A stretch of 33,646 nt of DNA, from the IMG/VR virus record IMGVR_UViG_3300030393_000017, positions 1 through 33,646 of that record, one strand, 5' to 3'. Every line of letters starts with the position of its first letter. Position 1 is the first letter of the stretch. Shown piece after piece: positions 1 through 30,533 of the stretch. The position numbers were made by a program, and so were the translations under genes. The notes beneath the pieces were generated by a model, which was given only the letters and a program-made list of their open reading frames with translations, was not told the DNA's origin and did not search any database. Source of the DNA: a virus.

Positions 1-474
1 TTATTTTTTAGAATCTCCTGACAACAAACTTATTAGCCCTAAAACTGCTGCACCACCTATTATCCAGGCAGCTGCATTTGAACCTTTATCCTTTTTACTC
101 TCCATCTTATTGATTTCGTCCTCTAATTTATTAATTGCTAATTCAGGATTGTTTCTCGAAAATGAAATGATAGGGTGTCTGAAGTTGGAATCTATTGGGA
201 CTATATCCTCTACAATTAATAATGTTTGAATTTTGGAGTTAAGAGCAGTTTCCCACTCATTCATAACTCTTTGTCTCTCCATAGATTTACCAGTAACTAA
301 ACCAATAACTAATTGTGAATTATTAATACTATTAATAGTTAAAGGACTTAGCTTTTCATTAAAATCGCTACTTTGAGATATACTACATCCTTTATTTTGA
401 AGTTCATTTGCTAATAATGACAGAATATATTCATCTTGATCATTTAATGAATATGAAAGAAATACATTGATCAT
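1..474 (-). CDS. TIR-like domain protein with C-terminal membrane anchor
   Basis: The 157-residue product begins with a TIR-type first strand (NVFLSYS, residues 3-9). A second core strand follows (QLVIGLV, 54-60). The segment V70-M-N-E73-W-E-T-A77-L lines up with the WVxxExxxAL helix that holds the catalytic glutamate in TIR and TIR_2 domains, so E73 is the candidate catalytic residue. A third strand is TLLIVED (84-90). After a charged linker, residues about 135-152 form one hydrophobic helix, so the protein is probably tail-anchored in the inner membrane. Bacterial TIR domains often degrade NAD+ or make cyclic ADP-ribose signals in phage defence; activity here is inferred. Its start overlaps the end of the upstream nuclease-like gene by 4 bp, so the two are co-translated. 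A related Rossmann-like fold without NADase activity is possible. Confidence 0.62.
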   Translation of the reverse strand: MINVFLSYSLNDQDEYILSLLANELQNKGCSISQSSDFNEKLSPLTINSINNSQLVIGLVTGKSMERQRVMNEWETALNSKIQTLLIVEDIVPIDSNFRHPIISFSRNNPELAINKLEDEINKMESKKDKGSNAAAWIIGGAAVLGLISLLSGDSKK

Positions 475-980
475 TGTGTTGGTAATTTAGAAGTTAAAAA
501 CTCATTATAATCAGGAAAGAACACTTCAAAAAGACTTCTTCTAATCTTTAGCTTCTGAAGAAATTGTCTTCCATCCCAATATTCATAATGATAATTATAT
601 CTACATTCGTCATTTAAACGAGTAAAAAGCTTTGTTACAGTTTCTGTAGGATTGCTTTTACAAATCAGTAAGTAACCTGATGCTTTGTAAGAATGTATTA
701 ATGTTGGGATATTAATAGTATTTATAGCCGATGCTGGAATATTTTTATCCCAAAATTTACATTGTACTATCCATCTTCTCTTAAATATTTTTATATCATC
801 ACTTATTGAAAAATCTATTAAAATATCTACACCTCCATCAGAACCAATACCATTCTGAATTAAGTCAACATTTGATATATTGTTATTTTTATCTTCTTTA
901 ATATCTCTAAAATATGCAGCAACGAGCTCTTCAAAATGAGTGCCATCACTTATTTCTTCATAAGACAATGTATTACGCAT
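471..980 (-). CDS. Mrr-like restriction endonuclease-fold protein
   Basis: The 169-residue product has the pattern of a PD-(D/E)xK nuclease of the Mrr_cat group: an N-terminal helix with FEELVA (residues 16-21), then GSDGGVDILI carrying the metal-binding Asp, then after a strand and turn VQCKFW, the QxK motif. The C-terminal part (YWDGRQFLQKL through LFEVFFPDY) resembles the tail that often follows such domains in defence proteins. It is the first gene of a two-gene minus-strand unit and overlaps the TIR-like gene by 4 bp. It could be a DNA-cleaving effector or a nucleic-acid sensor for the TIR partner. No methyltransferase or specificity subunit is next to it in the window, so it is not a classical restriction-modification system. 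Fold fairly sure; function inferred. Confidence 0.66.
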   Translation of the reverse strand: MRNTLSYEEISDGTHFEELVAAYFRDIKEDKNNNISNVDLIQNGIGSDGGVDILIDFSISDDIKIFKRRWIVQCKFWDKNIPASAINTINIPTLIHSYKASGYLLICKSNPTETVTKLFTRLNDECRYNYHYEYWDGRQFLQKLKIRRSLFEVFFPDYNEFLTSKLPTQ

Positions 981-11156: not shown

Positions 11157-11761
11157 TACTCGATTCATTAGAGAGAATACCGTACAAGCTGTTTCTGAGG
11201 GTTTGCGAAACTTCGGAGTATTACCTTTTAGATACTTCTAAAAAAAGCCGTGAAGAGGCTACAGATGAAGAACTAAAGGCGCTTTCAAGTATATGGGATA
11301 AAATGTATGCTGAACATGACTCTAAACAGTCTAATGAGCAAAAAAAAGTATTTCAGATTTCTAAAAATATCGATCAGTTATTAACGACTAACAAGACCAT
11401 TCTTTTCGCTTGTTTTAGTTTAAGGTTTGAAATGAATACTGAAATGGTTGATATAATTAGGTCCTACAATCATAAGCTATCGACTGATGATACTGAATCA
11501 TATTTCAATGATTTAGATAGAATAGAGAGAGAAGCAAACGCTTATACTATTAAGGCAGAGCGATACAAGTCTATGTTGCCTGAAGAACAACATAGCAGTA
11601 AAGAGAAATATACCATTGACGATATAATGGCTTCGTATTCGGCAATATTAGGAGTCAATATTGGTGATTTCAACACCATTACTTACACAGCTTATAAAGG
11701 CTATGAAAAACAAGTTAATGCAAAAATAAACTCATTAAAGAATAGTAACTATGGCAAATAA
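11153..11761 (+). CDS. Putative tail assembly chaperone
   Basis: The 202-residue protein is soluble, helical and acidic (residues about 30-50 and 95-140 are charged helices), and lies immediately upstream of the tape measure, overlapping its start by 11 bp. In siphoviruses this slot holds the chaperones that coat the tape measure during tail assembly, often as a pair made by ribosomal frameshifting. I see no second overlapping product or clear slippery site here, so a single-gene version is assumed. Sequence alone does not identify the family. Confidence 0.5.
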   Translation: MILDSLERIPYKLFLRVCETSEYYLLDTSKKSREEATDEELKALSSIWDKMYAEHDSKQSNEQKKVFQISKNIDQLLTTNKTILFACFSLRFEMNTEMVDIIRSYNHKLSTDDTESYFNDLDRIEREANAYTIKAERYKSMLPEEQHSSKEKYTIDDIMASYSAILGVNIGDFNTITYTAYKGYEKQVNAKINSLKNSNYGK

Positions 11762-14700
11762 AGGCGGAGTAATAACCAGGAAAGATATTATAGAGGATGA
11801 TGCTTTAAGATTCGGGGAAGTGTATGCAAAAAACCTTGAGAAAGCTATTAGTTCTAATGAAGTACTGGTTGCATCAGTAAAAGAGTTAAACAAGCAAGCC
11901 AAAGCCTTCAAAGTGGCAAATGGTCATAAAGAATACATTACAATAAAACAAGCAACAACATTAGCTACACAAAAAGCTATCGATGCTATAAAAATAGAAG
12001 AGGCTGCTGAATTATCAGCCGACAAAATAAAGAGATCACATATTGCTACCATAAATGCTGAAAAAAGAGCTAAACAGCAGGTGATAAAGTTATCTCTTGA
12101 AGAAAAAGTAATAAATCAGCAAGCTACAACTGAGGCTAAAAGGCAGATTATCGCTAACGGGGCGTTAGCTAATGCTTATAAAGAATTATCGGCTAAAGTT
12201 GCTATTGCAGGCGATAAAGTAAAAAACATTATCGCTACAGGTAGAAAAGCTGGTGAAACTCAAGCGCAGTATAATAAAAGACTAAAACAGGCGCAAGCAC
12301 ACTTTGACAAGCTATCCATTAGGGTCAGAGCAGCTGATGCAGCAGTTGGTCAATTCAACAGGAATGTGGGTAACTACCCTAAACAGGCTACTGCTGCCCT
12401 TAAAAACTTGATATCGGCATTTGGTGTAACCACAGGTATTTATCTGTTCGCACAGGTGATGAAAGATGCTTTCAATGTCGCAAGAGACTTTGAGAAACAA
12501 AATGCTACTCTTTCTGCTGTTCTTCAGGTAGAGAAAGAAAATATGAAAGCTCTTACTGATGAAGCAAAAAAGCTCGGTGCTCGTACTGTAAAATCAGCAG
12601 GAGAAGTAACACAACTTCAAATTGCTTATGCAAGGTTAGGTTTTTCACAACAGGAGATCATTGACCTTACTGAATCTACTATATCGGGATCTATTGCCAT
12701 GAATTCTGAATTAGCTCAGACAGCCGATTTAGTAGGTGCTGTTGTAAATACTTTTGATGATTTTAGTTCTACCGATGCTCCAGAGATTATAGATGTAATG
12801 AGTTTGGCTACTGCTAAGTCTGCATTAAACTTTCAAAAGCTAGAAACGGGTATTCCTATTGTGGCAGGTGCTGCAAATGCAGCTGGTGTTCCTTTCACAA
12901 AATTAGTCGCGTTATTAGGTAAGCTTGCCGACTCAGGTATTGACACTTCTTCTAGTGCAACAGCACTTAGAAATATATTTATTGAAAGTGCAGCACAAGG
13001 ACTAGATTATGGTCAGATATTACAGAAAATAAAAGATAGTCAAGATAAATTAACTGCTGCGAACGATGAGTTTGGGAAAAGAGCAGCTGTATCTTCGGCA
13101 GTACTGGCTGAAAACATTGACAAAACAAATGAACTAGACGAAGCATTACGAAATGCTGCTGGTACAGCTCAAAACATGGCTGATAAAGAATTAGCCACTC
13201 TTGATGGTGCTGTTAAGTTGTTGTCTTCCGCTTGGGATGGGTTAATAATAGACACAACAGATGCTAATTCAGTTAATTCTAAATTAGCTGTTGGACTTAC
13301 GTTCTTAGCTGAAAATTTGAAAACAATATTTAATGTTCTTGGATACCTTACAGCTGCGTGGGTAGCTTATAAGACCTCTTTAGTTTTAGCCAATGTACAA
13401 ACAAAGTTAATTGCGTTAGCAACAACACAATCAACTGCTGCGCAAGCAGGGAATGCTACTGCAACAAACTTATCTACAATAGCATGGAAGAAGTTTAACA
13501 CCGCATTAAAAGCCAATGCACTAATGTTGTCTGTCACAGCTCTAATCGCTATTGTTTATTACTTCAATAAACTTCATAAGTCTTTAGAAGAACTTACGGA
13601 TGAAGCAAAGAGTAGTACTGAAGCATTCTTACAAAACAAGGAGCAGACTCAAAAAAACATATCATCTATTTCTACTCTAGCAGATAGATATGATGTGTTA
13701 AAATCTAAGACTGAATTAACAAAAGAAGAGCAAAAAGAACTTAATAAAATCACTAAAGAACTAGGTAAGACAGTACCTGAAGCTACTGAAAAAGTAAATG
13801 GTTATGGAGATGCTTTAGAAATAAATACTGAAAAGATAAGAGCATATAATAAGGAGCAAAAAGAACATCTAGCATTAGGAAAAAGTATTGAACTAAAGAT
13901 CCAAAACGATTTATTAAAACAGCAGCGTGAAAGACTTGAAGATATTAACCAGGCTAACATTGAGGCATCTAAAATATATGATCCGAAGTTTCAGGGCTTT
14001 GTTTTGGAAGGAGCTGGTTCTCATGCCAAAACCATTAAGACACTAAATGGAGAGCTTCAAATAAGGAATGGAATATATGGTAAATATAGAGATCTAACAG
14101 ATGAGGAGCTACATCAATATCAAGAGATAAAGATGAAAGCTGAGGAAGAAATTCAAAATACTAATAAAAGAGTTGAACAGATAAAAGAAGTCATTGACTT
14201 AACTAAAGAGAGTACTTCTGTAAATGAAGATGCTGAAGGTAATAGCCAAAAGGCCGTAGAAAGAACAATTGCTATTATTGATGAAGAAATAAAAATTCAA
14301 AAAGAAAAAATAGCTACACTTTCAGATAAAACAGGTAAAAAAGGGGATGCAATTAAAGCAGAAATAGCTTCTCTTGAAGCCGAAAGAGAGCTAATTTACA
14401 GAACTCAAAAAGCCGAAAAGAAGAGATTTGATAATGGTATAAAAGGCTATAAAGAAGTTAGAGAAGCTATTTACCAGCTCTCTCAATTTCGCTATGACAA
14501 TGAGATAAAAATTAACGAGGAAATAATTAAAAGTGATTCAAGGGTTACAGAGGAAAAACTGAAAGCTCAAAATCGTATTTCAGAATTAAGAGAAGCTAAA
14601 AACGAGGAAACATTAAGGTATGAATTAGAGAAAAATGCACTGGAAAAAGAAGGTGTAGATAAACTTTCTAAATCAAAACTTGAAGCTTACAAAAAAGATG

Positions 14701-16061
14701 TTGAAAACAGGATTGAATCCCTTGTAAGTGGTAAAATTAAAGCAGAAAACATATCGAATGAAGAATTATTAATCATCGAAAAATACTATGCTCAAAAAAG
14801 AGAATTACAGGAAAAAGACAAGGAGAGAACGCAAGAAATTATCGACTCAGAAGTTGAGGCTATTAGAAAAAGGATTGATGCTGAATTACAGTTAAGAGAA
14901 AATAACCTCAACCAGGATATTGTCAAAGAGAATGATGTTTACAATGAAGAATTGAATTCAGCTCAAGGAAACTTCTCTTTAATAGAAAAAGCTAGAGAGG
15001 ATCACGAAAAACGATTGTTTGACATCAAGAAGAAATATGCTTTAGAGGGACTCAACTTGCAAATAGACGAGCTGCAAACAATGTTAGACAAAAATGATTC
15101 ACTAGATAAGTCTGAACAAATATCATCGGATAAAAGAGCTCAAATCGTTGCTGACTTAGAACGTTTCAAACGAGAGGCTTCTGATTTAAAAACAGAAAGC
15201 TATGTGTCTAATCTTCTAAGTAAGGAAGAGAAAGAAAAGTTGTTTGCAGCAAAAATAAAAGAACTTACAAGTGAAATGACAGGCGCTCTTACCGATTTTA
15301 CAAATACTATTTTCGATGGTAGAGCTGAAAGAATAGATGAAGATATTGCAAGGAGTGACGAACATTACGCTCATCAAATTGAACTTGCGGGGAATGATCA
15401 AGAACAAAAAGATTTATACGCTGAAGAAGCAGAGAAAAAAAGGAAAGAGCTTGAGGCTAAAAAAAGGAAAGAACAACAAAAGCAAGCTGTATTCAACAAA
15501 GCAATGCAGGCTACTCAAGTAGGTATTTCTACAATCGGAGCAGTTATGTCGGCTTTACGTGATGTGCCTAAATTTGATTTTGGTATTAGTGCAGCAGCTC
15601 TAGCAGCTACTTACGCAGGTATCGGGGCGGTTCAATTAGCTGCGGTGTTGGCTAAACCAATACCAAAATATAAGGATGGTAGAAAAGGTGGTAAAGAAGA
15701 AATAGCTTTTGTTGGAGATGGTGGAGTTAATGAGGTTATTGAAAGAGCGTCTGGAGCTGTAGAAATAACACCTGCTCAAGACACTTTAGTGAAGCTTAAT
15801 GCTGGAGATAAAGTCCACAGCTCCATAGAGGAATACAATAAATTACAAAGGGCTGCTATGGCAACTTCTTTAAATCTACAAGGTAAAAATGTAACAGATT
15901 ATCAAGCTCAGAGGGAATTTGACGATTTATATGGCAAAGAGCTGCTTGAAGAGCTGAAAGAGAATACAAGAGCTGTGAAACGTAACCGAACTGTGGTTAA
16001 CTATTCTAAAATAGATCTAGAACATGAGTTTTGGAAAATGGGGAATAAGAATTGGGAGTAG
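11751..16061 (+). CDS. Phage tail tape measure protein
   Basis: The 1436-residue protein sets tail length and is ejected ahead of DNA. It is mostly long helices and coiled coils. Residues about 245-470 (KQNATLSAVLQVEKENMKALTDEAKKL, QLQIAYARLGFSQQEI, PIVAGAANAAGVPFTKLVALLGKLADSGIDTSSSATALRNIF) match the core of the TP901-type tape measure family. Hydrophobic stretches at about 222-240, 526-545 and 590-605 are typical channel-forming segments. Residues about 720-1290 are charged coiled coil, and a Gly/Ala-rich segment lies near 1265-1305. At roughly 1.5 angstroms per residue the tail would be about 200 nm long. It is the last gene of the head-tail operon. Confidence 0.93.
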   Translation: MANKGGVITRKDIIEDDALRFGEVYAKNLEKAISSNEVLVASVKELNKQAKAFKVANGHKEYITIKQATTLATQKAIDAIKIEEAAELSADKIKRSHIATINAEKRAKQQVIKLSLEEKVINQQATTEAKRQIIANGALANAYKELSAKVAIAGDKVKNIIATGRKAGETQAQYNKRLKQAQAHFDKLSIRVRAADAAVGQFNRNVGNYPKQATAALKNLISAFGVTTGIYLFAQVMKDAFNVARDFEKQNATLSAVLQVEKENMKALTDEAKKLGARTVKSAGEVTQLQIAYARLGFSQQEIIDLTESTISGSIAMNSELAQTADLVGAVVNTFDDFSSTDAPEIIDVMSLATAKSALNFQKLETGIPIVAGAANAAGVPFTKLVALLGKLADSGIDTSSSATALRNIFIESAAQGLDYGQILQKIKDSQDKLTAANDEFGKRAAVSSAVLAENIDKTNELDEALRNAAGTAQNMADKELATLDGAVKLLSSAWDGLIIDTTDANSVNSKLAVGLTFLAENLKTIFNVLGYLTAAWVAYKTSLVLANVQTKLIALATTQSTAAQAGNATATNLSTIAWKKFNTALKANALMLSVTALIAIVYYFNKLHKSLEELTDEAKSSTEAFLQNKEQTQKNISSISTLADRYDVLKSKTELTKEEQKELNKITKELGKTVPEATEKVNGYGDALEINTEKIRAYNKEQKEHLALGKSIELKIQNDLLKQQRERLEDINQANIEASKIYDPKFQGFVLEGAGSHAKTIKTLNGELQIRNGIYGKYRDLTDEELHQYQEIKMKAEEEIQNTNKRVEQIKEVIDLTKESTSVNEDAEGNSQKAVERTIAIIDEEIKIQKEKIATLSDKTGKKGDAIKAEIASLEAERELIYRTQKAEKKRFDNGIKGYKEVREAIYQLSQFRYDNEIKINEEIIKSDSRVTEEKLKAQNRISELREAKNEETLRYELEKNALEKEGVDKLSKSKLEAYKKDVENRIESLVSGKIKAENISNEELLIIEKYYAQKRELQEKDKERTQEIIDSEVEAIRKRIDAELQLRENNLNQDIVKENDVYNEELNSAQGNFSLIEKAREDHEKRLFDIKKKYALEGLNLQIDELQTMLDKNDSLDKSEQISSDKRAQIVADLERFKREASDLKTESYVSNLLSKEEKEKLFAAKIKELTSEMTGALTDFTNTIFDGRAERIDEDIARSDEHYAHQIELAGNDQEQKDLYAEEAEKKRKELEAKKRKEQQKQAVFNKAMQATQVGISTIGAVMSALRDVPKFDFGISAAALAATYAGIGAVQLAAVLAKPIPKYKDGRKGGKEEIAFVGDGGVNEVIERASGAVEITPAQDTLVKLNAGDKVHSSIEEYNKLQRAAMATSLNLQGKNVTDYQAQREFDDLYGKELLEELKENTRAVKRNRTVVNYSKIDLEHEFWKMGNKNWE

Positions 16062-16095
16062 TTTATAAAACATTTTACTGTTAGTTTGTTTTATT

Positions 16096-16117
16096 AACCC
16101 TGCCAGTTGGCAGGGTT
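16096..16117. terminator. GC-rich hairpin between the tape measure and a convergent gene
   Basis: Arms AACCCTGCCA and TGGCAGGGTT form a perfect 10-bp stem around GT. It lies 35 bp after the tape measure stop and 5 bp before the end of the convergent minus-strand gene. The trailing T-run is short on both strands, so termination may be moderate, but the position suits a shared bidirectional terminator. Confidence 0.6.
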
Positions 16118-16121
16118 TGCT

Positions 16122-16592
16122 TCATTCAATAGGTAACATGTTGACTTTCCATTTTAAAAAATTTCCTTTATCATCTTTGACTATTATATATTTTATTTTT
16201 GAAGCTAAGTATATTTTTTTATTCGTTCTCAATTCTTCGACAGTAATAAAATCAAGATTATTGATAGTACTAATTTTTTCAGGCTTATCTACAGAAAGAT
16301 AATTAATCGAACTTGTAGGAGAAGAAACGAACGATGTGTCAGGTGCCTTTTTAAAGATATTTGTTTTTTCGTTATTTTTCTTTACAATTTTCCTCTGCTG
16401 TTTTTCAGAGTTATAACTTTCTCTATAGATTGCAAAAGAAGTTCTCATATAATCTTTAGAAGATTTGACAGATATATAATCTTTATTTAAATCTTCTAAA
16501 TAAAGAATGTTAGTTTCAGTTTGAGTAGAAAACATACTAACTGCGAGTATCAAAATAGAATATATACTGATAAGAGAATTATTTATTGACAT
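16122..16592 (-). CDS. Secreted protein, partner of the surface lipoprotein
   Basis: The 156-residue product begins with a hydrophobic segment (LISIYSILILAVSMFS, about residues 7-22) that reads as a signal peptide or membrane anchor. The rest is hydrophilic: a basic central part (KQQRKIVKKNNEKTN), a Ser-rich linker, and a C-terminal beta-like region (NKKIYLASKIKYIIVKDDKGNFLKWKV). Its start overlaps the end of the lipoprotein gene by 10 bp, so the two are one minus-strand unit set between plus-strand tail genes. No family recognised. The pair is probably expressed from the lysogen rather than with the virion genes. Confidence 0.6.
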   Translation of the reverse strand: MSINNSLISIYSILILAVSMFSTQTETNILYLEDLNKDYISVKSSKDYMRTSFAIYRESYNSEKQQRKIVKKNNEKTNIFKKAPDTSFVSSPTSSINYLSVDKPEKISTINNLDFITVEELRTNKKIYLASKIKYIIVKDDKGNFLKWKVNMLPIE

Positions 16593-18181
16593 AAGTTATC
16601 TGAGTTTTCATTATGATAATTAAAAAATGTTTCCAAAATTTCTAGTCTTTTATTTTGTGGAGTATTCTGCCATGCCACAGTTGGATTAGTCGGTAGACCA
16701 GTTACTGGATCGATATCTCCATCCCCCATTAGTCCTACCCATGCTAAAGCTTCATAAACATTCTCAGATTGACTATTATCAAATTCTTTTAAAGTGTTTA
16801 TTATAATGTCTCTATAATGCTGAGCCATGAGTTCATGTTGGTAATCACTCGGAGTAGTAGTGTTATAAGAATACCTTAGATAATAATCAAATAAACCAGG
16901 AAAATCATTATGTAAATTAGTAATATAATTTTCCCACTCTTGTTGGCTATAGTTATGAAAATTGACGTTAGGAAGTCCTGCACAACTTAATAATTTTCTG
17001 TAAATTTCTGCATGAATCATTTCATGTATAAATGTTCTCGCAACATCAAGCGAAGGCCTATTTAAATTATTGGGATTAAACATAATTTCAATTAAATAAT
17101 TTATGGGTCCAATAGTAACCGCATTTGCAGTTGGATAATCTTCATCAAGACCAACACTAAATTTTAAATTCGCTACTGAAAAATCTCCATCAAAGTTTTG
17201 CAAATAGTTCTGAAATGTAGGAGAGCCTCCTAGTTGATCATAAATACCTTTCAAACAATCGTTATCTGAAAAAGTAGGGTCTAAAATAATTTGTAAAGGC
17301 TCCAAATCTAATAATATTGGCTGAGTAATTATTGTTTGACCTTCTACTAAACTATCATTTGTATCAGGTTCTTCTCCTCCTGAACCACTTCCGTCTCCTG
17401 AACCACTTCCGTCTCCTGAACCACTTCCGCCTCCTGAACCACTTCCGCCTCCTGAACCACTTCCGCCTCCTGAACCACTTCCGCCTCCTGAACCACTTCC
17501 GCCATCGTCACAACCTACATATACATAACTTAAACTTGTAGGTTGAAGTACCCACTCACTGCCTCCTACTTGACATTCAGCATGACCTGGTTCATGCTCA
17601 TAGCCTGCATCACATTCCCATGAACCTACATAATGTTGAATCGCATCAAAACAATTAATATTGATTAATCCGCCTCCGTTACCAATTACCAAAGGTATTA
17701 TTTCAGTTTTAGAAAGTATTGTTTTAATAGGTAATTGTCCCAAATTTTTAACTTCATTTTGTGTTAAATGATACCTAAAGAAATAAGCATTAAATGTACC
17801 ATCAAGCTTAGATTCTAAGACAATATTTTCTATCTCTTCATCTTTTTTATCTTCCCTATCGGTGTTAAAAGTATAGGTGTGTTTTCCATCATAATCGATA
17901 TAAAGAGCTTCTTCATCTTTTACCTGTAAATCTGTAGGAATGGAAAAAGAATTAATGTTTTGTTTTATTTTAGCAAGTCCTTCATTTACGGCAACCAAAT
18001 CTGGAAAATTTCCCTTTTTTAATTTTTTGTAGGTGATTTTATCTAGTGGACCAAAACTCTTGGCTTTAATCAAAGACTCGTCGTTTGGAGTTATTCCAGC
18101 ATCATCTTTTTGACACCCTATAAACATCGTTAATAGTAACGCTATTCCAAAAACAACTTTCTTTCGAAGATTTATTCTCAT
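16583..18181 (-). CDS. Surface lipoprotein with HExxH metallopeptidase motif
   Basis: The 532-residue protein has a lipoprotein signal peptide ending FIGC, with Cys23 as the lipidated residue. The next residues, QKDD, fit the Lys-(Asp/Glu)2 lipoprotein export signal described in Capnocytophaga, so display on the outer surface is likely. Residues 24-165 form a first domain. Residues 170-226 hold Cys and His (C177, C190, H196, H200, C203, C224). Residues 227-268 are a Gly/Ser/Asp linker. The C-terminal domain has FIHEMIHAEI (H386, E387, H390) and a later QHE (H449, E450) that could supply the third zinc ligand, as in minimal zincin-like proteases. It sits on the minus strand inside the tail region, a lysogenic-conversion cargo arrangement. 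Substrate unknown; peptidase activity inferred from the motif. Confidence 0.75.
   Translation of the reverse strand: MRINLRKKVVFGIALLLTMFIGCQKDDAGITPNDESLIKAKSFGPLDKITYKKLKKGNFPDLVAVNEGLAKIKQNINSFSIPTDLQVKDEEALYIDYDGKHTYTFNTDREDKKDEEIENIVLESKLDGTFNAYFFRYHLTQNEVKNLGQLPIKTILSKTEIIPLVIGNGGGLININCFDAIQHYVGSWECDAGYEHEPGHAECQVGGSEWVLQPTSLSYVYVGCDDGGSGSGGGSGSGGGSGSGGGSGSGGGSGSGDGSGSGDGSGSGGEEPDTNDSLVEGQTIITQPILLDLEPLQIILDPTFSDNDCLKGIYDQLGGSPTFQNYLQNFDGDFSVANLKFSVGLDEDYPTANAVTIGPINYLIEIMFNPNNLNRPSLDVARTFIHEMIHAEIYRKLLSCAGLPNVNFHNYSQQEWENYITNLHNDFPGLFDYYLRYSYNTTTPSDYQHELMAQHYRDIIINTLKEFDNSQSENVYEALAWVGLMGDGDIDPVTGLPTNPTVAWQNTPQNKRLEILETFFNYHNENSDNLCQ
17379..17504. repeat. Seven tandem copies of an 18-bp unit
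   Basis: The unit CCTGAACCACTTCCGCCT (with T for C at one site in the first two copies) recurs every 18 bp from 17379; the last full unit begins at 17487. On the coding strand it gives Gly-Gly-Ser-Gly-Ser-Gly-type repeats, so copy changes alter linker length in steps of six residues without breaking the frame of the lipoprotein gene. Confidence 0.9.
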
Positions 18182-18305
18182 GTATTGTAGTTTTTAAGTT
18201 AGATAGTTATAATTATACGATTAATCTTTACAAATATTGTGCAAAAAATATTCTTAACACATTATTCATATCAATGATAATGTTTCTAGGGTTAACAAGT
18301 GTGTT

Positions 18306-18336
18306 ATTTATATCTATTCTGAATTATGTATTTTTG
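18306..18336 (+). promoter_or_regulatory. Possible promoter of the distal tail block
   Basis: TATTTTTG at 18329-18336 fits the TAnnTTTG -7 consensus and lies 20 bp before the ATG at 18356, after a divergent gene, so a promoter is needed about here. No TTTG is present at the -33 spacing. ATTTATATCTATTCTGAAT (18306-18324) resembles the 19-bp operator seen at 6125 and 24140 at 14 of 19 positions but is only 4 bp from the -7 box, so relation to that operator is doubtful. Confidence 0.35.
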
Positions 18337-18355
18337 CTTATATAAGACCTTAAAT

Positions 18356-19009
18356 ATGAGCAGTAACACACAATTTAACGATAGAGTAAGATATACTCTG
18401 AAAAATAAAAATTTAGGCTCTGAGATAATAACAGAGCCTATAGGGTGGAATGATGATGATAAGGAATATTCAAGGCATAAGAATTATCACGGAATAATCG
18501 CAAAGTTCTCCAACTCATTAAAATTTATAGGCACTGGAGCTGATTACATACAGATGGCTTTAGACCTGTATGGGATTAATGAAGAGTTAGAACTAACAAG
18601 AGAAGAAAGGCATCCTCATACAGATCAATGGACCTTGATTTATTCGGGTTACTTAGATTTATCAACTTGGGTTAAACAAAACGATCAAGTAAGCGTTAAA
18701 TTCAACTCAGGAGGATTAGAGCAGTTATTAAAATCAAGAGAGCGCGACAAAATAGAAATAGATAGATTAACATCTATTGATGGTGGAAATTTGCCTGTTT
18801 TACAGACTGTAAATGTTAAGCTAGAAGGCAGAAGGATATTTTTAAAAAGTGAGTTAGTAGCAAAAGGAACTCAAAATTATGTAGGTCATTCAAGTAGAGC
18901 TGGTGATACAGGTAGTTATAGTTCTGGAATTCCTTTTGAAGTTTTAAATAAATCACATGAACAATGTACATGCTATTTTAGAAAGTTCAGAGATAAGTCA
19001 AGAAGGTAG
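18356..19009 (+). pseudogene. Distal tail / baseplate protein, N-terminal fragment
   Basis: This frame encodes the first part of a tail protein, starting MSSNTQFNDRVRYTLKNKNL. The frame is open from 18326, but ATG-1184 style upstream residues are not tail-like, so Met-18356 is preferred. Its family-like sequence runs to about SSGIPFEVLNKSHEQ (near 18964), then turns into an unconvincing Cys/Arg/Lys-rich run before the stop at 19009. The continuation is found in the next frame (VHAILESSEISQEGSSGG from about 18966). Dropping one base near 18965 joins the two, so a one-base indel has split the gene. Position after the tape measure suggests the distal tail or baseplate hub. A programmed frameshift is unlikely because no slippery sequence is visible. 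Confidence 0.7.
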
Positions 19010-19991
19010 TTCAGGAGGGACATATAACGGTACAACAGGTATGATGTTTTTCTTAACATCAGACAAAAGACGACACCTTAAGATAAATTTGAGTCTGAAT
19101 TTTAAATTTACAACAAATACTGTAGATGTAGATTGGTCGCATTACCAAATCAATTTAACGCGATACGCAGACGGTACTAATTATTCCGTAGTTGAACGAA
19201 TTAATATCTTTGATTTACCCAATACCTCAGAAATAGTAAATAATAATGGACAATTATTTACTGTTTCTTTAGATACAATGATAACAGTTCAAAAAAATGA
19301 AAGTTTAGCTTTAGAGTCTAGACTTGCATATGATTTACATAATGTACATGCTGGTCAAGAAACAGCAAAAATTGAATGTAAACTAAGTCAAATTAGTGGA
19401 CATTTAACCATTGAGGAAGATTCTTTTCATGAAGCTACAGAAACTAAAGCAATACTGGCTCATGAAATGGCAGAAAGATTAACAAGTATTACTACTAACA
19501 ATAATAACTCTTTTTATTCTGATTTTTTAGGAAGAACAGATATTGGTTATTCCTCTGACGGGGAAGCTGCTTTAACAGCTTTTTCTCATGGGTTTTGGAT
19601 TAGGAATTTCACCAAAGATGAGTCAGACGAGGAAGATAGGTTCAAACCTCTTACAACGTCTTTTCGGGATTTCGTAGAGTCTATGTCGACTGTGTGGAAT
19701 ATAGGGGTCGGAATAGAAAAATCAGCTCATAAAGAAATCGTAAGACTAGAAGAGTTAAGTTATTTCTATAACAGAAATACAACTATAAGACTCCCTAATC
19801 AAGTAAAAAAAGTAAAACGATCAATTGCTAACGAAAAGTATTATTCATCATTAGAAATAGGTTTTAATGAAGGTGGAGAATATGAAGAAGCTTGTGGTCT
19901 TGACGAATATAATGTAAAATCAACATTCACAACTTCTATAAATAGAATTAAAAAAAGCTATACAAAGCTTTCTAAATACAAAGCTTTCTAA
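18957..19991 (+). pseudogene. Distal tail / baseplate protein, central fragment
   Basis: The middle section of the same broken gene, in a different frame. It includes a beta-rich domain (about 19020-19440), then EATETKAILAHEMAERLTSITTNNNNSFYSDFLGRTD and a helical region (FRDFVESMSTVWNIGVGIEKS). The real coding content starts about 18966 rather than at a true start codon. It ends abnormally: SYTKLSKYKAF and a stop, because a 16-bp segment is present twice (19961-19995). With one copy removed the frame reads SYTKLSKYRADSYGMEFARR and enters the next fragment. Confidence 0.72.
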
Positions 19992-19995
19992 ATAC
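19961..19995. repeat. 16-bp tandem duplication that shifts the frame
   Basis: TACAAAGCTTTCTAAA occurs twice in direct contact at 19961-19976 and 19977-19992, followed by TAC. Sixteen extra bases shift the frame by +1 and create the stop at 19989-19991. Removal of one copy restores an uninterrupted tail gene frame, so this is almost certainly a replication-slippage mutation. Confidence 0.9.
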
Positions 19996-20013
19996 CGAGC
20001 TGACAGTTACGGG

Positions 20014-20598
20014 ATGGAATTCGCAAGAAGAAAGCAAAAAAACTTAAACGACACAGAGGACACTAGCTATGACAACAAAATTTTCTTTTTAGATCTGAAA
20101 AGGTTTACCTCTACCCTGTTCAAGCAGCGAAAGTGGGAGGATGATTTTGAAAACGCGCCTGCAGGTGTATTTAGTCCAGACACAGCTACTAATTTAAGGT
20201 TCTCCCCTTTTAACTGCTTACTTCGTCACGCGTGGTGGTTCTCTGGGGGCTTAACTAAATATCTTACAGAGCATGTAAGATATAGTAGTTCAGTATCTAA
20301 TAGTAATTTAAGAACAAGGTTGTTAGGAGGTAATGAATATGCTGAGAATGGAAATATTATAAATTCCGAATTAGATCGTCCGCGCTTCGTACCCGAGATA
20401 ATAGAATTTGAACACCTGTGTGATTTTGAAGTTATGCAACAGGTCAACGGGACCTCTAGTATATTGGGTAAGAATATACCAAACCTATATGGGTTGGTGG
20501 AATTTATAAATGAAAGGAATGAGGTGGAAAAAGGTTATTTAATGAACCTTAAGCCTAACAAGAAAGGAAAATGGAAATTATTAAAAGTAAATAGATAG
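20014..20598 (+). pseudogene. Distal tail / baseplate protein, C-terminal fragment
   Basis: The last section of the split tail gene, whose coding content continues from about 19996 (RADSYGMEFARRKQKNLNDTEDTSYDNKIFFLDLKR). The Met at 20014 lies inside that continuous sequence and is not a likely natural start. The fragment ends LKPNKKGKWKLLKVNR and stops one base before the next tail gene. Together, 18356-20598 would encode a protein of about 740 residues. Without repair the hub or baseplate would be missing two thirds of its length. Confidence 0.7.
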
Positions 20599-22785: not shown

Positions 22786-23775
22786 TTATTTATAAACTCT
22801 TTTATCTCTAAAAATAATTCTAGTCCCTTGATTTTTAAACATAATACCGTTGTATTCAAATCTTTGAACTTTGAAATCGTCATCCCCGACAGTTCTATCT
22901 TGAAGCCTTTCAAAATTATTTAATGTTCCATTTTCATAAAAATCAACATCTAATTCCTTCGGATGAGTTACTTCTAAAGTATAATTATGAAAAATATGAG
23001 AACAAATGTGTGATTTAGTATTCTCAACTTTTAAAGAATATATTTTTGTTTCTTCTTTTTTAATAGAATATTTATTCTTTCCCTTTAAGTTTCTTGTATG
23101 ATTTACAAAAACTTTATTTCCATTATGATTTTTATCAACCGTTAGTTTAAGTTTTTTAGAATCAATTTTTGTGCCATTTACCTGAAAACTTCGCATTTTG
23201 TAATCAGTGATATTATCTTCGTAATTTTCTTTACTAAATAAGCAAGACGACTTATAGTCTACCTTATCTTTAGTTCTACTAATAAGATCAAAAGACTCTC
23301 TTTCTTTTAAAATTATAAAATTTTTATTTTCTTTATCAAAAGATATATCTACTTTATAGACATAATTTTCATAATATTTACTTGAATCAACAGGTATGTA
23401 TTTTTCAATATTTAGCTCTATTTTGTCACATAATTCTGGAAAGTTTTTACGATACATTGCTTTAGAAGCGCTTATCCATAGATCTCTAATGTCTTTTCTT
23501 TTTTCAAGATGTTCAGTACAATATATTATTTCTCTCAATTGTTTACTGAATATTTCTGTAAACTGTTTAGATTTTACAATGGTAGTGAAAACTGTAGCAG
23601 TAATCATTGTAATACCAGAAGTATTTAACGCTTTAGGTAAGAATTCGATTTCTTCACAGAAACTAGAATATGATAATAAAATAAAAAACAAACCACAAAT
23701 AAATATATAAATCCACCTGTAATCACTAATATATTTTATTGTACTGGGTTTGAACTTAGAAAAAAAATTTGGCAT
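22786..23775 (-). CDS. Two-TM membrane protein with large soluble domain, moron candidate
   Basis: The 329-residue product has an N-terminal pair of membrane helices (about residues 20-38, WIYIFICGLFFILLSYSSF, and 48-67, ALNTSGITMITATVFTTIVK). A helical segment follows (ILIEYC..LEKRKDIRDLWISASKAMYRKNFPEL region, about 75-120), and then a predominantly beta C-terminal domain (about 125-329). The 2TM-plus-cytosolic-domain plan is common in phage exclusion and abortive defence effectors, but I recognise no named family. It lies on the minus strand between two tail blocks and is insulated by the terminator at 22611-22650. On the minus strand a TTTG (23810-23813) and TAAATTTA (23783-23790) are 19 bp apart, a fair promoter match, but almost touching the ATG. 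Confidence 0.62.
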   Translation of the reverse strand: MPNFFSKFKPSTIKYISDYRWIYIFICGLFFILLSYSSFCEEIEFLPKALNTSGITMITATVFTTIVKSKQFTEIFSKQLREIIYCTEHLEKRKDIRDLWISASKAMYRKNFPELCDKIELNIEKYIPVDSSKYYENYVYKVDISFDKENKNFIILKERESFDLISRTKDKVDYKSSCLFSKENYEDNITDYKMRSFQVNGTKIDSKKLKLTVDKNHNGNKVFVNHTRNLKGKNKYSIKKEETKIYSLKVENTKSHICSHIFHNYTLEVTHPKELDVDFYENGTLNNFERLQDRTVGDDDFKVQRFEYNGIMFKNQGTRIIFRDKRVYK

Positions 23776-29318: not shown

Positions 29319-30533
29319 TTAAGCAAAATCATTCCCTACAGCCTTCAATCGTGCAAACTGACGTTCCTTTTCTCCCACAGCATAATGATTCTCTAACATC
29401 TTAGTTGATTTATGATTAGCCATAGCAGCAGCTTCTTTCATAGATAACAAAGCAACAGTTTCATCAAGATTTATATGCTTCAACGCATAAAAGTCAGCAG
29501 AAACCCCTAACTTTTGTTTAACATGAGTTCTCCACCTTCTACTTATTTGCTGTGTTCTTATTTTACTTTCTCCTGGCTTTAAACCAACAGAGAATATATA
29601 ATCTGATTTCTTACCTCCAAATAATACTCTTCTCCAATAAACCAAAGCAATATCCTTTATCACTCTCTCCACCCATGTATGTTGCTGACCTTTTTTAATT
29701 AATACTCTATACTTTTGATTTTCAATATCTACATCTTCAATTTTTACACTCAACAACTCTGTTATTCTACCTCCAGAGTGGAAAAATATTATCAAGAAAA
29801 TCCAGAAATCAGGAAAATTATGTTTTAGATGATCATTAACTAGCTTCCTTTCTTCTACAGTAAGTGTTTCTCTGATTGTTTTTACTTGCGTTCTTTTACG
29901 AATATCAGTGATTATGTTATTTTCTACTGCTTCAAATTCTAAAAGCTCACGAAAGATAACCTGTAAATACCCTCTATATTTATTGAATTTATGACCTGAG
30001 AACTTTCCTTGAGTCTTTTCTAAATTTGAAATTATCAACTTTATATGCTTTCTTCTCACATCTTTAATAGCTAATTCATCATACCTAAGTTGTTGAGCTG
30101 ATTTTTTGAAATGAATTAGGATGAGTCTAATGTCGTTATTAGTTGTTTTTGCAATCTCTAATCTTTCATAGACAAAATCTAAAGCTTTTAAAAAAGGGGT
30201 ACTAGGACCAAGTTCTGAGTCTGAGTCTTCTTCTTCAGTATTCTCGATCATATATTTACCCGTAATAGGATTAAATCCTTTTTCTTCAAAAAGTCGAGGG
30301 ATCTCTTCTAACAAGAATTTTACAGCTGCTTTCTTCTTTTCTAGCGACTTAATTCTATTTAATTTTTTCCTAAAGGGAAATCCTTTAGGGTATTTTTCTT
30401 TAAATAAAGGATCGTAGAAAACACATTGGATATACCAATTTTCAGAAGAGGCTTTCTTGTCAGAAATTGTTTCCCAATTTTTTGGGGACACCCATACATC
30501 AGTGTATGAGCAATCGAAAGGTAAAAGTTTCAT
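29319..30533 (-). CDS. int: Phage integrase (tyrosine recombinase)
   Basis: The 404-residue protein has an N-terminal arm-binding part, a core-binding domain (about 110-215), and the tyrosine recombinase catalytic domain. The first catalytic Arg is in SGGRITELL (about residue 255). The second box reads F-Y349-A-L-K352-H, where most family members have H-x-L-R; ANHKS with H374 and the nucleophile Y384 in ENHYAVGEKE follow. Many Bacteroidota integrases carry this YxLKH variant, so it may be functional. It is the last phage gene, next to tRNA fragments that mark attachment sites. It ends 6 bp from the terminator at 29313 and is convergent with the lysis genes. Confidence 0.88.
   Translation of the reverse strand: MKLLPFDCSYTDVWVSPKNWETISDKKASSENWYIQCVFYDPLFKEKYPKGFPFRKKLNRIKSLEKKKAAVKFLLEEIPRLFEEKGFNPITGKYMIENTEEEDSDSELGPSTPFLKALDFVYERLEIAKTTNNDIRLILIHFKKSAQQLRYDELAIKDVRRKHIKLIISNLEKTQGKFSGHKFNKYRGYLQVIFRELLEFEAVENNIITDIRKRTQVKTIRETLTVEERKLVNDHLKHNFPDFWIFLIIFFHSGGRITELLSVKIEDVDIENQKYRVLIKKGQQHTWVERVIKDIALVYWRRVLFGGKKSDYIFSVGLKPGESKIRTQQISRRWRTHVKQKLGVSADFYALKHINLDETVALLSMKEAAAMANHKSTKMLENHYAVGEKERQFARLKAVGNDFA

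Follow-up and report, generated by a model that had tools for sequence, protein, structure and literature searches.

Polymorphic toxin features of a lipoprotein with a predicted zincin domain, encoded with an exported partner in a flavobacterial prophage

Results

A two-gene cassette lies between late genes of a prophage

The window (the whole stretch of DNA that was analysed) is the 33,646-nucleotide virus record IMGVR_UViG_3300030393_000017. It maps to positions 203409-237054 of contig C12 in a 2.5-Mb draft genome that is 83.8% complete. Its terminase, portal, major head, tail/tape-measure, structural and integrase genes mark the region as a prophage. Two minus-strand ORFs of 532 and 156 amino acids, which overlap by 10 bp (common letters ATGTCAATAA), were found at the coordinates given by a first-pass annotation of the sequence (Table 1). 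That annotation described the longer product as a lipoprotein with a lipobox, a CQKDD sequence, a Cys/His-rich segment, a Gly/Ser linker and a HEMIH motif containing E387, and all of these are present. The Cys/His-rich segment is probably the end of the carrier domain, where its Cys residues would be joined by disulfide bonds. The seven linker repeats could change in copy number by slippage, or could act as a site at which C-terminal domains are exchanged.

Neither protein was assigned to a named family in Pfam, NCBIfam, PHROGs, PADLOC or PDB sequences, where most matches fell on the Gly/Ser linker. A terminator scan detected no classical terminator between the tape-measure gene and the cassette and gave no score to the hairpin at this place. 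The hairpin is not followed by a T-run, and it is a possible bidirectional stop.

Table 1. Positions of the cassette, its domains and the neighbouring features in the window
Feature	Position	Strand	Basis
Lipoprotein gene, 532 aa; predicted surface lipoprotein polymorphic toxin	16583..18181	-	ORF call; carrier and zincin profile searches
Lipoprotein signal peptide (aa 1-22), predicted lipidated Cys23, export signal CQKDD (aa 23-27)	18101..18181	-	Sequence; motif compared with PMC5080379
Conserved N-terminal carrier domain (about aa 28-165)	17687..18100	-	Common to proteins with unrelated C-termini
Cys/His-rich pre-linker segment (about aa 170-226)	17504..17674	-	Sequence; similar pre-linker segments in relatives
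Gly/Ser linker (GSGSG[G/D])7, seven near-identical 18-bp repeats	17375..17500	-	Sequence
C-terminal zincin domain (aa 301-532), putative toxin	16586..17281	-	Conservation, structure model, profile searches
HEMIH (aa 386-390, with E387)	17012-17026	-	Sequence
Third invariant His, H449	16835-16837	-	34-member alignment
Exported partner, 156 aa; predicted immunity protein	16122..16592	-	Hydrophobic N-terminus, position, co-variation with zincin
Perfect hairpin AACCCTGCC-AGTT-GGCAGGGTT	16096..16117		Between convergent ends of tape-measure gene and cassette
Tape-measure gene, left neighbour of insertion	11751..16061	+	Profile match
Virion structural gene (phrog_15220), right neighbour	18356..20598	+	Profile match; relatives compared
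Insertion relative to five related (pro)phages	16062..18355		Flanking genes abut in relatives
Integrase	29319..30533	-	Profile match

The cassette is a cargo insertion

The location inside the tail region given by the first-pass annotation was borne out: the pair lies in inverted orientation between the tape-measure gene and the phrog_15220 gene. The pair is absent from five relatives, three from IMG/VR and two from genomes, and in these the next structural gene follows the tape-measure gene directly or with a slight overlap. Therefore, the pair is a cargo insertion of roughly 2.3 kb, and the 2.3 kb separating the flanking genes holds exactly the inverted pair. We detected no direct repeats at either edge of the insertion. 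The first-pass annotation had also proposed to look for the pair at the same site in other prophages; it is missing there in all five related (pro)phages.

The phrog_15220 gene is a single ORF of about 716-746 aa in the five relatives. In contrast, it is split here into three frames by frameshifts around positions 18950 and 19975, and the break near 19975 is a 16-bp tandem duplication. This points to a possibly defective prophage or to a possible error in the draft assembly. If the prophage is decaying, a chromosomal toxin cassette may simply have landed in it, and the phage would be a passive site and no vehicle. The broken structural gene and its duplication fit this idea. So does our search of IMG/VR, phage and plasmid records, which found no relatives of the zincin or the carrier, and the neighbourhoods look chromosomal in the few relatives whose neighbour genes were read. 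However, the reading frames of terminase, portal, head, tape measure and integrase are open, and the frame breaks could be assembly errors in an incomplete draft genome. Moreover, the pair is inverted and placed precisely between two genes, as is often the case for phage cargo genes. We regard a passive landing site as a real possibility that falls somewhat short of an even chance.

The lipoprotein has a surface-export signal and the partner an export signal

The optimal signal (LES) for surface export of Bacteroidota lipoproteins is C-X-K-(D/E)2-X (PMC5080379). The sequence C-Q-K-D-D-A, which follows the lipobox of the 532-aa protein and has K-(D/E)2 after the +1 Cys, fits this motif. By this match, the lipoprotein is probably displayed at the cell surface through CQKDD, in agreement with the surface export suggested earlier. 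A lipobox was detectable in 26 of 38 long N-termini of the carrier family. At least two acidic residues occur at positions +2 to +6 in 21 of these 26 lipobox carriers versus none of the six partner lipoproteins. This is the pattern reported for surface-exposed versus periplasm-facing lipoproteins, and also for BcpT and BcpI. The 156-aa partner, which had been annotated as a secreted protein, has a hydrophobic N-terminus; the same holds for 61 of the 63 partners at homologous loci.

The C-terminal domain is a predicted zincin

We aligned the C-terminal domain with its relatives (31-62% identity). H386, E387, H390 and the distal H449 are invariant in 34 of 34 sequences, and therefore the HExxH is not a chance occurrence. 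In the AlphaFold2 model of the domain (pLDDT 90.2, pTM 0.88), the HExxH lies inside a 25-residue helix and the distal His on a later helix. Thus, both the conservation and the model agree with the zincin-type peptidase domain proposed by the first-pass annotation.

A Foldseek search with the model gave no PDB match below E 0.001; the weak matches include the zincins 3e11, 4hx3, 6wjj and 7skm. Weak profile similarity to SprT-like proteins (PF10263) was detected around the HExxH helix in 26 of 34 zincin members (best 1.7e-6), and a profile search with the zincin retrieved SprT-domain chains of Spartan at E 0.0025. The 532-aa protein itself scored 14.5-16.4 bits, below the PF10263 gathering cut-off of 25.6. 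Unlike SprT-like/Spartan, a cytoplasmic DNA-repair protease, the protein has its third invariant His 59 residues downstream and is predicted to be exported. No Tox-MPTase profile in Pfam matched the 532-aa protein at E values up to 5. From sequence and model together, we read the C-terminal domain as a zincin of its own, with a predicted HExxH...H zinc site.

Of 150 related genomes, 19 encode the zincin domain. Across Bacteroidota it occurs at 68 loci, in Flavobacterium, Kordia, Tenacibaculum, Polaribacter, Riemerella, Algoriphagus, Roseivirga, Gracilimonas and others. At five loci (L102, L107, L112, L128 and L135), the same zincin stands behind a second, unrelated lipoprotein domain, which the carrier profile fails to recognise. 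Thus, the zincin has been exchanged between at least two unrelated lipoprotein carriers.

The carrier domain is shared with unrelated toxin domains

We built a carrier profile from the mature domain, leaving out the signal peptide and the linker, and used 200 shuffled sequences as controls. The profile retrieved proteins whose C-termini matched the following Pfam families, all above the gathering cut-off: Tae4 amidase (L175, 5.5e-13), AHH nuclease (L165/L062, 4e-11), Tox-MPTase3 (L231, 3.6e-10), peptidase M23 (L163/L059, 4.5e-9; L214, 1.5e-12) and DUF6973 (L162 and L246). In the first pass, the carrier E-values of the Tae4, AHH, M23 and DUF6973 proteins ranged from 4e-6 to 8e-11, versus 0.04 for the best shuffled control (n=200), and every carrier recognised in that search scored 4e-6 or better. 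The carrier E-value of L231 was 5e-18. Thus, one conserved N-terminal domain is combined with unrelated C-terminal domains (zincin, Tae4, AHH, M23, Tox-MPTase3 and DUF6973). We rejected the idea that the signal peptide alone accounts for the carrier homology, because the matches were kept in the search with mature sequence and shuffled controls.

Imm11, a curated immunity family, is encoded directly downstream of both AHH versions (L165 and L166; 9.9e-9 and 1.8e-10). These Imm11 partners have no signal peptide, whereas the partners of the zincin and M23 versions and the DUF6705-linked partners are exported. The partners thus appear to reside where the toxins are expected to act, with the cytoplasmic side represented by the two AHH loci only. 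Another group of C-termini (L170, L172 and L174) has an HxH...SxxD pattern, which suggests a resemblance to JAB/JAMM peptidases, and is followed by DUF6705 partners. These arrangements suggest that DUF6973 is a toxin domain and that DUF6705 is an immunity family of the JAB-like toxins in this system. At L179, two DUF6705-like partners are found in tandem.

The carrier occurs in 53 of 400 sampled Flavobacteriaceae genomes (about 13%) and in 43 of 237 genera. In the open-access journal papers searched, we found no description of the carrier family, DUF6705 or DUF6973.

The partner travels with the zincin

We counted partners at the 63 loci that have both the zincin motif and a partner. The partner start lies within -25 to +15 bp of the toxin stop in 60 of these 63 loci. 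Among 35 non-redundant loci, partner similarity was correlated with zincin similarity (Mantel r = 0.46, P = 2e-4), and the corresponding value for carrier similarity was r = 0.005 (P = 0.38). Homologous partners were found in 56 locus pairs, of which just four have detectably homologous carriers. Partner similarity thus tracks the zincin and not the carrier, and therefore the partner travels with the peptidase domain. By position and co-variation, it is the adjacent gene that follows the toxin domain; immunity is its predicted role. On contig L036, a full-length toxin is followed by tandem carrier-less zincin fragments with distinct further partners. Thus, stand-alone zincin/partner cassettes exist as well.

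The structure model of the partner was of moderate confidence (pLDDT 76), and Foldseek gave no significant fold match for it. The zincins of L087 and L092 are 54-63% identical to that of the 532-aa protein, yet these loci, with which L225 was grouped, encode a different partner family consisting of lipoproteins. No similarity between these lipoproteins and the 156-aa partner was detectable. One type of toxin may have two immunity families that are unrelated to each other.

A peptidase and its inhibitor can also be adjacent and co-vary, and flavobacteria commonly secrete zinc proteases. The pair could accordingly be a housekeeping or scavenging protease of the cell surface with a periplasmic inhibitor or folding helper, and no weapon. 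This is hard to reconcile with a carrier that is common to nuclease and Tae4 domains and to loci with Imm11 immunity genes, with the patchy distribution (zincin in 19/150 relatives, carrier in 53/400 genomes), or with the tandem carrier-less cassettes. We consider a housekeeping role improbable.

The pair has the features of a polymorphic toxin-immunity system

Judged by its sequence, the locus belongs to the polymorphic toxin systems. The carrier is shared with toxin domains, the partner co-varies with the zincin and there are tandem cassettes. Therefore, we think it highly likely that this cargo of a flavobacterial prophage is a toxin-immunity pair of the polymorphic kind, and not a superinfection-exclusion lipoprotein.

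The latter was the proposal of the first-pass annotation, in which the prophage alters the host surface by superinfection exclusion or lysogenic conversion: its surface lipoprotease would trim a phage receptor, or would aid nutrient use. Such a role would suit a surface lipoprotein signal joined to a protease domain in a prophage, and phage surface lipoproteins such as Ltp reportedly block superinfection (PMC3952083). However, the pair occurs on many flavobacterial and other Bacteroidota chromosomes and in none of the viral and plasmid collections searched, and five related phages lack it. Moreover, the carrier that would display the receptor-trimming protease also bears nuclease, amidase and M23 toxins, and neither the co-variation of the partner with the protease domain nor the tandem cassettes agree with this role. 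Receptor trimming and nutrient use thus fit the locus poorly, and we regard them as very improbable.

The toxin-immunity pair may work as follows. The 532-aa protein would be exported by the general secretory pathway (Sec) and then lipidated, and CQKDD would probably flip it to the outer face of the outer membrane. There, the N-terminal carrier domain would display or deliver the C-terminal domain, and the zincin, which follows the flexible GSGSGG linker, would be the warhead. Transfer to neighbours might occur by contact, in vesicles or after proteolytic release. The zincin would act as an antibacterial toxin by cleaving at least one envelope protein of neighbours that lack immunity. In the periplasm of the producer, the exported partner would bind and neutralise the zincin, protecting the producer and immune kin.

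Another route would be delivery by the tail of the phage or a type VI secretion system (T6SS). The cassette lies inside the tail gene cluster, and one carrier relative has a Tae4 domain, which is named for T6SS amidases. However, the protein has its own lipoprotein signal, its gene runs opposite to the tail operon, and the pair is absent from five related tails. We searched for T6SS genes with PF05943, a proteobacterial marker, and with PF17541 (TssC of T6SSiii), which was added because PF05943 may miss the Bacteroidota-type T6SS. TssC is missing in 24 of 28 carrier/zincin genomes, including the genome that holds the prophage, where neither VipB nor TssC was matched (83.8% complete). A T9SS marker was present in 28 of 28 genomes and is therefore uninformative. 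We consider delivery by the tail or a T6SS extremely unlikely.

Discussion

What is known of interbacterial weapons in environmental Bacteroidota concerns mainly T6SS and secreted bacteriocins. The polymorphic toxin-immunity pair analysed here suggests a broader picture, to which we give an even chance. Flavobacteriaceae would possess previously undescribed surface lipoprotein polymorphic toxins that use a T6SS-independent route (e.g. outer-membrane vesicles, membrane contact or proteolytic release), and temperate phages would pick them up and spread them. A lysogen would then gain a weapon together with the immunity to it, in parallel to SitA on Mx-alpha prophages. If this is true, a common competition system with an uncharacterised delivery route exists, since its carrier is found in about 13% of Flavobacteriaceae genomes with nuclease, amidase, M23, zincin and other domains. 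Testable roles would follow for DUF6705 (immunity-type partner), DUF6973 (toxin domain) and the present zincin (a new toxin peptidase).

The carrier proteins may be seen as a widespread mix-and-match toxin family of Flavobacteriaceae. In its predicted mode of action the pair is like SitA/SitI and BcpT/BcpI, and in architecture it is similar to APD1/APD2. The first members of SitA/SitI were found on Mx-alpha prophages of myxobacteria (PMC5562445, PMC8546572). As described, they share with the present pair a lipoprotein toxin with a conserved N-terminal domain, a polymorphic C-terminal toxin and a downstream immunity gene. Unlike SitA, which is transferred by TraAB outer membrane exchange and whose studied toxins are nucleases, the pair here has a surface-export motif, an envelope-type peptidase and an exported partner. 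BcpT of Bacteroidales is a surface lipoprotein toxin of about 500 aa, encoded on a mobile element with BcpI, a small downstream immunity lipoprotein without acidic export residues (PMC9308784). By description, it resembles our pair in topology, mobile location and small downstream partner. In contrast to the prophage pair, BcpT is plasmid-borne and was reported to have no similarity to any characterised toxin.

The APD1/APD2 effectors of Amoebophilus likewise combine a lipoboxed N-terminal domain of Bacteroidota with highly variable C-termini (Zhang 2012, PMC3482391), a likeness of architecture by description. Their predicted target is a eukaryotic host, and they come from one endosymbiont, whereas the carrier family here has an immunity-like neighbour gene for each toxin and is spread family-wide. 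Zhang et al. foresaw a wider spread of lineage-specific lipobox-plus-carrier effectors (PMC3482391), and our analysis extends these to predicted toxin/immunity pairs and to a prophage. Like Tox-MPTase1-5 (Zhang 2012; PF15639 and others), the present domain is a predicted HExxH zincin at the C-terminus of a polymorphic toxin, and the carrier relative L231 bears Tox-MPTase3 itself. Unlike the described Tox-MPTase1-5, which are mostly on RHS carriers, it matches none of their Pfam models. MuF polymorphic toxins, e.g. Bxa, are prophage-encoded and have neighbouring immunity genes (PMC11699363, PMC5576092), as is predicted here. However, a MuF toxin is part of a capsid-protein fusion encoded in the head operon, and the lipoprotein here is free, its gene lying inverted after the tape-measure gene in the tail region; no MuF match was found in the window.

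Additional genes in the window and in the genome

On contig C3 of the same genome (L033, 7429-9576, minus strand), there is a second toxin/partner pair with a more distant zincin that has HEMIH. Its partner is a 200-aa lipoprotein of another family, and the next gene resembles a peptide-chain release factor (GGQ motif). In the window, a 329-aa ORF with a hydrophobic N-terminal region (22786-23775, minus strand) is inverted within the late operon. It had no detectable counterpart in L154, L155, L156, L160 and L161 and no PADLOC or Pfam match, and it is probably a second cargo gene. Beside the terminase end of the prophage (1-980, minus strand), a TIR-domain gene (PF13676) overlaps a 169-aa gene that matches the candidate defence model PDC-M58A, and these two genes are a possible defence pair.
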